The notes under the pieces: model-generated
What the model was told of the DNA's origin: nothing
The model's database searches: none
Seen by the model: only the letters and a program-made list of their open reading frames with translations
Assembly (NCBI RefSeq): GCF_000468755.1
Contig: NZ_AWEZ01000067.1
Coordinates: 1 to 64,000 of the forward strand
Direction of reading: 5' to 3'
DNA length: 64,000 nt
DNA from: Olsenella profusa F0195
GTDB lineage: Bacteria; Actinomycetota; Coriobacteriia; Coriobacteriales; Atopobiaceae
Program-made: the position numbers and the translations under genes
Shown here: piece by piece, positions 3,559 to 39,321 of the stretch
Numbering within the stretch: position 1 is the first letter of the stretch
How the letters are laid out: the number at the start of each line of letters is the position of its first letter

Positions 3559-3653
3559 TGCCGTCCCGTAGCCAGATGCGTACGATGGCGACACCTCTAG
3601 GCGCCTTTGCCCCTTTTTTGTCGCAACGACGCACATCTGGCTACGGGACGGCA
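3559..3653. repeat. 95-bp element with 20-bp perfect inverted ends
   Basis: TGCCGTCCCGTAGCCAGATG at 3559-3578 is exactly inverted at 3634-3653. Inside, GCGACA (3588-3593) pairs with TGTCGC (3619-3624), enclosing AGGCGCCT and a run of six T. The whole can fold as one cruciform or hairpin. It lies between the nfnAB terminator and the pyrE promoter and carries no gene. It is probably a miniature palindromic repeat; the T6 run could also let it terminate transcription. Confidence 0.6.
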
Positions 3654-12448: not shown

Positions 12449-12624
12449 GGGAGCGAAAGGGCCCCAAGTGCGTGCCGACATCGAGGCGCAGGGTGGATTC
12501 GTCGGGGAGTCGGGGGCAACCCAGCGCCCTCGCGGACCTCGATCCTGGGCTTTCGTCGCTCGCGGGTGTCGCCAACGCGCCGTGGGCACGCAACCGAGCA
12601 CGCACTTGGGGCCCTTTCGCTCCC
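12449..12624. repeat. Palindromic element A (family with GGGAGCG...GTGCGTGC ends)
   Basis: A 176-bp element with a 27-bp perfect terminal inverted repeat (12449-12475 and 12598-12624; outer end GGGAGCGAAAGG, inner end CAAGTGCGTGC). The interior, read on the minus strand, contains AAAGCCCAGGAT and CTCGATGTCGG, blocks shared with element C, so this copy is in the opposite orientation. A GGCGGCAT stretch just outside is also shared with element E. No gene is inside. It separates secY from adk and resembles a MITE or a REP-type repeat. Confidence 0.75.
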
Positions 12625-17786: not shown

Positions 17787-17983
17787 GGGAGCGAAATGGC
17801 CCCAAGTGCGTGCTGGCCTCGCGTCCCATCCCCGCCAGGAGAGCATCCAGCGAGCCCACATAGGGAAAGGAAATCTTCTTTCGTTGCAAAAACAACGCTT
17901 TGGCCCAGCTGAGCGCACCGATCTGCACCTTCTAGGGACCCAACACCCGCTATGCAGCACGCACTTGGGGCCATTTCGCTCCC
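17787..17983. repeat. Palindromic element B, on the rplE side of the inserted gene
   Basis: A 197-bp element with a 28-bp perfect terminal inverted repeat (17787-17814 and 17956-17983; outer GGGAGCGAAATGG, inner CAAGTGCGTGCT). The ends are the same as in elements C and E, but the interior is different from A, C and E and less GC-rich, with AAAAACAACG inside. It lies about 190 bases upstream of the inserted nuclease-like gene. Confidence 0.75.
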
Positions 17984-18172
17984 AATCGCTCACTCTAGGC
18001 TATAACTGCGCGTCGATCAATCCGGGAAAGAACCATACACCTCCTGTCAGACACGTGCAGCAATCCACCTTTCTTTAAGGTGCCGCTCAAGGAACCACTG
18101 AGCGAGTAGGGCTTTCCCCTCCATGCATCCCCTATGGTCTTTGTACTCTGCCAGATGAGCCGGGGGGTGCCC

Positions 18173-19345
18173 ATGATTGTCGTCTCACATGAGAGTGCGC
18201 TTGCCCTGTGGCGCTCGACCGCCGAAGAGCCGCGGGGCATTGACGTACACGCATGTGATGGGATCTTCAGCCCCGTGTTGGGTGCTGGGCAGAGGATCGA
18301 CCGACGCGCAGGCGGGGCACGGGCCACCTGTGGCTTTTGGCAGCGACATCAGCGAGAGCCTGATCCTCAGTACCAGTTAAGCCCCCGTGCATGGCCCGGG
18401 AAGCAAGCGTCCCTCACCGCAGGCGCGTGCCGTTGTGCCCTGGGAGAGCTACACCACCTGCGCCACGCGATCGAGGTCGATGGCATCACACATGTGCTCT
18501 GCCCCTCTCGGTCTGGACGCACCGACGTGCCTGACATCAAGGCGCACCTGTGCACGAGGAAGCTTTCCGGCAGGGACCTCTACGTCCTCACGGATGGCGT
18601 GCTCGTCTGCAGCCCCGAACTCACCCTCCTTCATCTAGCGCGCGGAGCCACCCAAGCCAAGGTTGCGCTTCTGGCAACAGAACTCTGCGGCCTTTACAGC
18701 CTGGATGAGACGACACGGGATACTGGCGCGGGGTTCAAGGGCAGAAAGGCACCCCTCACACAGCCGCGTCTCATCGCGCACATGCTCGATCGTCATCCGG
18801 GTGCCCCGGGAAGTCCACTGCTGCGTTGCGTGCTCCCATTTGTCGCACCCTATGCCGCCTCCCCCATGGAGGCCAAGATTACCCTGCTCCTCTGCCTCCC
18901 CCGAAGGTGGGGAGGGTACGGTCTGCCGCTCGCCAGCCTGAACGCGTCCATAAGGCTCTCGCCTCAAGGCGAGGTGCTGATGGGGCTCCCCGCCATTGCG
19001 GGTGACCTCAGCTGGCCCCAGTCTCATGTGTCCATTGAGTACGACAGCACGGCCGCGCATGGCATCAGCATGCGCGGCACATGGATGACGCACAACGACG
19101 TCAAGCGAACTATGCGTGAGGTCGAGCGACGTCGCAAGCGCGACGAGACGAGGCTCTCGGCCCTCAGTGCATCGGGTTGGCAGGTGTATCCCCTGGTCGA
19201 CACCACGGTGCATGATCGCGAGGCACTTGACGCCGTCGCGCGTGCCGTCGCCCGAAAGCTAAGGAGAAGGCTCAAGCGGGACACGGCGGAGTCTCTGGCG
19301 CATCAGATGCGTCTCCGAAAGGAGCTCGGGTTCGAGCGCTCATGA
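18173..19345 (+). CDS. Uncharacterised protein with AbiEi-like N-terminus and PD-(D/E)XK/DUF559-like C-terminus
   Basis: A plus-strand gene inside the minus-strand spc operon. ATG 18173 follows GGGGGG at good spacing (the frame is open from 18134), giving 390 residues. The middle (PSRSGRTDVP, LYVLTDGVLVCSPELTLLHL, LLATELCGLY) resembles the AbiEi-like proteins common in Coriobacteriia. The C-terminal third resembles a PD-(D/E)XK fold of the DUF559/Vsr kind: Glu233 (SPMEAK), LPRRWGGYGLP, Asp278 (GDLSWP), then VSIEYDS with Glu289 and Asp291, and a GWQVYPL strand. Lys of the ExK motif is replaced by Asp, as in several DUF559-like lineages. No signal peptide or membrane span. Palindromic elements B and C bracket it. 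A nuclease role is an inference. Confidence 0.6.
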   Translation: MIVVSHESALALWRSTAEEPRGIDVHACDGIFSPVLGAGQRIDRRAGGARATCGFWQRHQREPDPQYQLSPRAWPGKQASLTAGACRCALGELHHLRHAIEVDGITHVLCPSRSGRTDVPDIKAHLCTRKLSGRDLYVLTDGVLVCSPELTLLHLARGATQAKVALLATELCGLYSLDETTRDTGAGFKGRKAPLTQPRLIAHMLDRHPGAPGSPLLRCVLPFVAPYAASPMEAKITLLLCLPRRWGGYGLPLASLNASIRLSPQGEVLMGLPAIAGDLSWPQSHVSIEYDSTAAHGISMRGTWMTHNDVKRTMREVERRRKRDETRLSALSASGWQVYPLVDTTVHDREALDAVARAVARKLRRRLKRDTAESLAHQMRLRKELGFERS

Positions 19346-19375
19346 TGTGATGTTTAGCCATACGATGGCGGCAGA

Positions 19376-19560
19376 GGAGCGAAATGGCCCCAAGTGCGTG
19401 CTCGGTTGTGTGTTCATGACGCGTCAGCGGTGTCCACGGATGGCAAAAGCCCAGGATTGGGATTTGCTGAGATTCGTGAAGGCGGCAGATGGCTCCCGAT
19501 TTCCCGATGGGGCCGCCTTACGTCTCGATGTCGGCACGCACTTGGGGCCAGTTCGTTCCC
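19376..19560. repeat. Palindromic element C, on the rplX side of the inserted gene
   Basis: A 185-bp element with terminal inverted repeats at 19376-19401 and 19534-19559 (24 of 26 positions pair). The interior has GTCCACGGATGGCAAAAGC followed by CCAGGATTGGG, shared almost exactly with element E and, inverted, with element A. It starts 30 bases after the stop of the inserted gene and ends 11 bases before the terminator that closes rplX. Confidence 0.75.
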
Positions 19561-25448: not shown

Positions 25449-25598
25449 TCTCTGCGCACAACTTTTTTGGCGTTCTAGCTGCAGCTTGAGTATCCACGGC
25501 GTCGGGCGTCTCCCTGGCCGCACGCGGGGGAGGCGCACGGGAACTGCGCGAGGCGGCCAGGCCTCGTCAGGCGCGCGATGCACGTATCGAGGTGCCGT

Positions 25599-25784
25599 TG
25601 GAGCGTTTTGGGCTGAAGTGCGTGATGGCTGCGGGGCCAAGGGGGCAAAATGGGCGATTCCATCGTCTTGGGATCCCGTCGGAGGCTGTGGTGGCATCCA
25701 TGTAGGTACATAACCGCACATGATGGATGCATTTGGATGGGGTCTCGGCGTAACCCATCACGCACTTCAGCCCAAAACGCTCCA
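25599..25784. repeat. Palindromic element D (variant ends), rplC side of the pilus locus
   Basis: A 186-bp element with a 30-bp perfect terminal inverted repeat (25599-25628 and 25755-25784). The ends share GGAGCG and AAGTGCGTG with elements A, B, C and E, but the middle reads TTTTGGGCTG instead of AAATGGCCCC, and both arms changed together. The interior differs from the other copies. No gene is inside. It lies between the S10 promoter and the Cna-B adhesin gene. Confidence 0.7.
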
Positions 25785-25885
25785 CTGCGGCATAAGATCG
25801 AAGGCCCCGTATGGCAGGAGGGCCCACATCCCTGTGGGCCCTCCCTGCGGCACGTCAGCCCCGCGCTCGTGCCTGTCTGTGCCCG

Positions 25886-34433: not shown

Positions 34434-34609
34434 GGGAGCGAAATGGCCCCAAGTGCGTGCCCAGGCACGTGCCCATGGCACGTCGACGACGTCCACGGAT
34501 GACAAAGGCCCAGGATTGGGATTCGCGAAGGCGCCAGATGGCCCCCGGTTTCCCTGTGAGCTTGCCTTGCGCCCTGACGTCGGGACGCACTTGAGGCCAT
34601 TTCGCTCCC
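34434..34609. repeat. Palindromic element E, rpoC side of the pilus locus
   Basis: A 176-bp element with inverted ends at 34434-34462 and 34582-34609, differing by one substitution and one extra base. The interior contains GTCCACGGATGACAAAGGC, CCAGGATTGGGATT and GGCGCCAGATGGC, in the same orientation as element C. It lies between the rpoC terminator and the pilus operon promoter. Confidence 0.75.

Positions 34610-34878: not shown

Positions 34879-39321
<4,443 letters not shown>

Follow-up and report, generated by a model that had tools for sequence, protein, structure and literature searches.

The locus and its elements

Element D is an inverted repeat that lies between a Cna_B/SpaA pilin gene on one side and rplC on the other, in a stretch of 64,000 nucleotides from Olsenella profusa F0195 (contig NZ_AWEZ01000067.1, positions 1 to 64,000), here called the window. 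Four similar elements, A, B, C and E, are found with it in the rpoC-pilin-S10/spc region of the window:

12449..12624, no strand assigned: element A, lying between secY and adk; its arms, at 12450-12474 and 12599-12623, have a spacing of 149 and the cores AAAG/AAAG
17787..17983, no strand assigned: element B, lying upstream of rplE; its arms, at 17788-17812 and 17958-17982, have a spacing of 170 and the cores AAAT/AAAT
19375..19560, no strand assigned: element C, lying downstream of rplX; its arms, at 19376-19400 and 19535-19559, have a spacing of 159 and the cores AAAT/AACT
25560..25598, no strand assigned: outer flank of element D, drawn from the family rhythm that runs ~40 bp past the arms; probable extent
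25599..25628, + strand: left arm of element D, a 30-bp perfect inverted repeat containing the 25-bp core site 25600-25624, GGAGCGTTTTGGGCTGAAGTGCGTG
25629..25754, no strand assigned: interior of element D, with a 10.5-bp A/T rhythm that keeps the register of the arms and ranks at the 99.8th percentile of the window, and with no homologue elsewhere in the genome
25755..25784, - strand: right arm of element D, site 25759-25783, spacing 159 bp
25785..25824, no strand assigned: opposite outer flank of element D, probable extent as judged from the family
34434..34609, no strand assigned: element E, with rpoC on one side and a gene for a VWA/GBS104-like tip pilin on the other; its arms, at 34435-34459 and 34584-34608, have a spacing of 149 and the cores AAAT/AAAT

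The arms of D, 30 nt each with 126 nt between them, are 100% complementary, confirming the perfect match noticed in an earlier, sequence-only reading of the window. Both carry the core TTTTGGGCTG, and GGAGCG and AAGTGCGTG are retained around it. The departure of D from the other four elements, present in its two arms alike, is real. The comparison with the neighbours stands overall and needs correction in its details: A reads AAAGGGCCCC, not AAATGGCCCC, the right arm of C reads AACTGGCCCC, and the right arm of E reads AAATGGCCTC, one change.

Other features of the region are of separate interest. Elements B and C flank an open reading frame of 403 aa on the + strand (18134-19345), without a Pfam match, which sits between rplX and rplE and runs opposite to the spc operon. 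The RpoC-like protein (34879-39321, 1480 aa) matches the Pfam RNA polymerase alpha C-terminal domain at residues 1344-1394 (E=2.9e-8), close to its C-terminus, which is unusual for that subunit. A terminator-like hairpin, with 35-nt arms that are 80% complementary and a 25-nt loop, is found at 3559-3653.

A family of 27 intergenic copies

In a mismatch-tolerant search of the 2.72 Mb genome the arms occur solely as inverted pairs, and with an extra copy on contig 37 the total comes to 27 paired copies. Among non-redundant copies the arm consensus over positions 0-28 is (G/A/T)GG(A/C)(G/A)CG-WWWN-GGCCCC-AAGTGCGTG-N-Y-G, with sharp edges, so that the proposal of conserved blocks around a variable core is borne out. 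All 27 copies are intergenic, and in 20 of them the 3' end of a gene is at most 185 bp away. The adjoining genes are ordinary housekeeping genes, as placed by a retrained gene caller; several copies follow strongly expressed ones (rplX, secY, rplT and groEL, with rpoC at 270 bp). The order and orientation of the genes around the copies vary; some copies are set between two genes that converge.

The sample comprises one species and two strains. In the second strain, available as one 2.6-Mb contig, the identical 27 loci are occupied. Paired copies are absent from all 29 genomes of other species that were searched, three congeners included, and the arms have no match in the viral contigs searched. 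A scan of 84,980 species returned eight scattered exact single-arm matches, about the number estimated to arise by chance, with no obvious relative among them. No known family of this kind was found in the open-access literature, and the family to which D belongs is apparently an undescribed DNA element.

Helical spacing of the arms

The distances between arm starts fall at 137-139, 149-150, 159-160 and 170-171 bp (172 in the second strain). The 27 copies thus form four narrow classes, quantised at about 138, 149, 160 and 171 bp in steps of 10.7 bp. When one value is taken per homology group (n=16), the vector length is 0.951 at a period of 10.8 (p<5e-6). An unbiased scan with 14 fixed bases (AAGTGCG and its complement) over every spacing from 123 to 182 bp found no class beyond the four. 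In the first homology group, C17 and element C are longer than their relatives by an insertion of 10 bp, and copy C44 differs from its allele in the other strain by several 1-nt indels that sum to +1. Between the strains, interiors carry 1 indel event in 3226 sites and flanks 8 in 5894, a deficit that is suggestive and not significant.

Such strict helical spacing shows a constraint on double-stranded DNA. The arms stand in helical register (R=0.951) as the two sites of a DNA-looping operator pair do; at distances under about 500 bp, helical phasing is one of the usual marks of a loop (PMC8053113). Several of the tests in this study were conceived after the data had been seen; those on spacing and on the interior rhythm are mutually independent and far from threshold.

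A 10.5-bp rhythm through the interior

Of the interiors, nine belong to one homology group and four to a second; the other 14, D among them, are singletons. Aligned inward from the arms, their A/T content swings from 0.06-0.25 to 0.6-0.78 with a period of 10.5, at p=0.0005 (the lowest value that the test can give) and p=0.003 unaligned, in permutations that keep composition and destroy dinucleotide content. The A/T peaks recur near 31, 40, 50, 61, 72 and 83 across unrelated copies, and the phases of the left and right halves agree in nearly all singletons. AA/TT steps vary between 0.20 and 0.02 in antiphase to GC, and the centre of the element does not interrupt them. The rhythm crosses the arms and reaches about -40 outside (z of 4.7, 2.9, 2.0, then 0.9); by -60 to -90 it is absent, so the rhythmic stretch spans about 250 bp. 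Its strength varies between individual copies: it is at the 99.8th percentile of the window in D and at the 65th in E, the weakest, with modest values in A, C69b and C50a. Static curvature in a wedge model is only moderately raised (mean 58 versus 29 degrees).

The rhythm also takes in the arm core. Positions 7-9 are nearly always A/T and lie on its register; they may be AAA or TTT and are seldom G/C because of their place on the bending register. Given this restriction and the strict helical spacing, the earlier suggestion of a core with no need but pairing is an oversimplification.

Elsewhere in the window, at 242-399, a different and imperfect inverted repeat contains direct copies of TCGTGCGAGG at 247, 268 and 288, 20-21 bp (two helical turns) apart. 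For 10.5-bp A/T periodicity its peak ranks within the top 15 of the window, and it is possibly a second kind of phased element.

Matched arms and exchanged interiors

Core positions 7-10 are identical within pairs in 96 of 104 cases, where 45 +/- 7 are expected when the right arms are dealt out among the copies (p=0.0002, the lowest value attainable with 5000 permutations). This test for covariation, of the kind that had been proposed for the family, finds matching far beyond chance. Positions 3, 4, 13, 15 and 16 also match above chance; positions 0, 24, 27 and 28 do not under the same permutation, and blocks of the outer flank and interior match at chance level. Two loci whose alleles have diverged between the strains make the same point. 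At C20 the arms read TTTT/TTTT in one and TTTC/TTTC in the other, with positions 4, 10, 24, 26 and 29 altered in both arms, and at C44 TTTG/TTTG is set against TTTT/TTTT, both arms again altered together. The idea that the arms of one copy evolve together is well supported by these results. Single-arm changes without a change in the partner also exist, so matching is restored rather than immediate. Between strains the arms have accumulated 0.40% substitutions versus 1.27% in the interiors (p=0.008).

D does not form a clade of its own: its core lies within a continuum that includes TTTTGGCCCC, TTTGGGCCTG, TTTGGGGCCC, AAATGGCCCC and others. A D-like copy with unmatched arms had been named as evidence against joint change, and C69b, the nearest relative of the D core, does have one mismatch between its arms, at position 12; matching is otherwise strong, so it is best described as strong and not absolute. 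Two transposon lineages that differ in transposase recognition, one of the earlier explanations for the change in D, are rejected, since the cores are continuous, the two strains have their elements at one shared set of 27 loci and neither strain has a PF01797-type transposase.

Exchange between copies has left its own traces. Homology within the groups extends beyond the arms into 25-60 bp of flank. Relative to these homologous flanks, with flank scores judged against a shuffle maximum of 14, the interiors are found in both orientations, 5:4 in one group and 2:2 in the other. Copies C29 and C50b are identical at 169 of 174 positions (97%) from arm to arm on the same strand, whereas their flanks match only when swapped, at about 76%; an exchange bounded by the arms has therefore occurred between copies. 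In the second strain C50b has a cluster of differences at 72-82, which looks like a patch from another copy, the donor being conjectural. Interior orientation is identical between the strains at 25 of 25 comparable loci, so flipping must be rare.

Possible rivals: recombination site, mobile relic, gyrase site or RNA

The matched cores and the two orientations raise the question of site-specific recombination, with the arms as crossover sites of a recombinase, the core as an overlap that has to match, and a bent, phased interior that permits synapsis over 150 bp; segments would then flip at a low rate. Nine tyrosine-recombinase (PF00589) matches are present in the genome, and T-type arms include TTGGGGCCA, which in E. 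coli is the 9-bp inverted repeat at the fim switch (PMC11420993), a likeness that was spotted post hoc. The matching at positions 7-10 and the orientation ratios, 5:4 and 2:2, are accounted for together by such an element. It does not account for the constant orientation at 25 of 25 loci, nor for the matched changes at positions 4, 24, 26 and 29, which are outside any overlap and would not be homogenised by inversion. Moreover, the recombinases are Xer-like, integrase-like or broken, and no intact one was seen adjoining an element. On balance this explanation is unlikely, if still the most credible of the rivals. Particular forms of it are rejected: a serine invertase, as the genome has no match to PF00239, and a promoter inverton, given the shared orientation and the housekeeping neighbours. 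C20 (contig 20; about 2.554 Mb in the second strain) lies next to a tRNA and to an island that contains fragments of broken tyrosine recombinases; the island alleles of the two strains are about 70-75% identical. The recombinase there was set aside because it is broken and lies beyond the tRNA in this diverged island.

The three remaining rivals are less likely. Dispersed intergenic copies with inverted ends could be immobile remnants of a non-autonomous transposon (MITE), the arms being terminal repeats and the phase and bend set by transposase synapsis. At the one spacer examined, secY-adk, three congeners lack the arm pair and have a spacer roughly 160-285 bp shorter, although these spacers are too diverged to define a junction; homology groups that include flanks can be read in the same way. 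Yet all 27 loci are common to both strains, no target-site duplication was noticed, and homology runs beyond the arms. No autonomous relative with the same ends was found, as every 25-mer arm in the genome is paired at 137-172 bp and no copy has arms distant enough to hold a transposase. The arms also still look constrained in place, and unrelated interiors retain a phase and rhythm that relics would lose. A MITE origin is thus unsupported and improbable. REPIN/RAYT elements are rejected, there being no match to the Y1-type transposase (PF01797) in either strain; two congeners have one. A strong wrapping site for DNA gyrase or another topoisomerase, absorbing supercoils near operon ends in the manner of BIME-2 or the Mu strong gyrase site, would fit the position of 20 of the 27 copies within 185 bp of a gene 3' end, several of them after strongly expressed genes, and E. 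coli gyrase sites do have phased G/C variation from wrapping (PMC6379681). The E. coli gyrase motif is 130 bp long, with a 36-bp non-periodic centre between two 47-bp periodic sides (PMC6379681). Here the rhythm is continuous through the centre and covers about 250 bp, ~40 bp of it beyond the arms on either side, which is at odds with a site of the E. coli type, and two long conserved boxes at variable distance are needed; a wrapping site for gyrase or another topoisomerase is, if anything, slightly less credible than a MITE relic. Perfect pairing of the arms in many copies, and their joint change, would also be expected of a long RNA hairpin under compensatory selection, as the sequence-only reading allowed. 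Interior folding is mostly within the range of shuffles on both strands, with no consistent signal beyond the arms, and the RNA hairpin is rejected on this ground. An Rfam search gave no match, gene order and orientation vary, with some copies between convergent genes, and spacing on a 10.5-bp scale, like the A/T rhythm, is a property of double-stranded DNA, leaving this explanation very improbable.

A probable tight loop or wrap between bridged boxes

The two genomes directly display the boxes and their quantised spacing, the rhythm, the matching within pairs, the arm-to-arm exchange, and stable positions and orientations in both strains. A spacing that is quantised, together with an interior that is rhythmic, marks DNA that must bend tightly with the boxes on one face of the helix, and favours a loop or wrap. 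It is probable, as far as sequence can tell, that the element acts at the level of DNA, bent into a tight loop or wrap by a putative bridging protein, and that rare recombination matches its arms. This protein would bind both 28-bp inverted boxes and bridge them, and the DNA that separates the boxes and directly adjoins them, bendable in a rhythmic way, would be folded into a tight loop or wrapped on a protein surface. The segment is so short that the boxes must share a face of the helix, and their separation by an integral number of turns, some 13 to 16, would follow. That the spacing ranges over three turns argues against a single fixed protein surface and for a loop. A looping protein alone leaves the matching of the cores unexplained, so a separate recombination step is needed: rare recombination or template switching, within or between copies, would homogenise the arms and sometimes invert or swap the interior, perhaps favoured by juxtaposition of the arms or by replication. 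Selection would preserve the sequence of the boxes, the phase, and A or T at core positions 7-9.

More tentatively, and with rather less confidence, the chromosome may have about 27 nucleosome-like loop sites of ~250 bp, defined by shape and not by interior sequence, and organised by a putative dedicated architectural or recombinase protein. The candidate roles are chromosome architecture, the handling of supercoils near operon ends, and a slow recombination system.

Families kept by helical phase and bendability, with a sequence diverged beyond recognition, appear to be rare in bacteria. If the loop reading is true, the copies amount to 27 natural experiments on what a tight loop needs in length, phase and bend, and they point to a bridging protein of a bacterial chromosome. 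They are also a case of concerted evolution of paired arms in DNA, a pattern normally taken as a sign of RNA structure.

Relation to known systems

Invertons such as the fim switch share with the elements inverted arms, matched cores and a short segment, found both ways among paralogues, and TTGGGGCCA is common to fimS (PMC11420993); the elements differ in their constant orientation at 25 loci in two strains, and no intact recombinase was seen adjoining them. For a phase-variable inverton both orientations would be expected at one locus within the species. Strong gyrase sites and BIME-2 resemble them in phased A/T-G/C variation and as intergenic repeats, many near operon ends (PMC6379681), whereas the present elements lack a non-periodic 36-bp centre, are about twice as long, and have two specific inverted boxes at quantised spacing. 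MITEs, including Correia elements, are likewise non-coding, of about 180-260 bp, with inverted repeats of roughly 26 bp; here there is no partner transposon, no target duplication was noticed, the variable core is matched and the interior is phased. REPINs and REP elements are also extragenic inverted pairs, species-specific and vertically stable, in contrast with which the present arms are 137-172 bp apart, the interiors are phased and a Y1 (RAYT-type) transposase is lacking. The operators of lac and gal form short repression loops that depend on helical phase. Unlike such loops (lac, gal, ara), the family has 27 chromosomal copies, long conserved boxes, a rhythmic interior and no single regulon, and its binding protein is putative; it shares with them two protein sites, here presumptive, within a few hundred base pairs, and the dependence on helical phase (for the principle, and for AraC, see PMC8053113).
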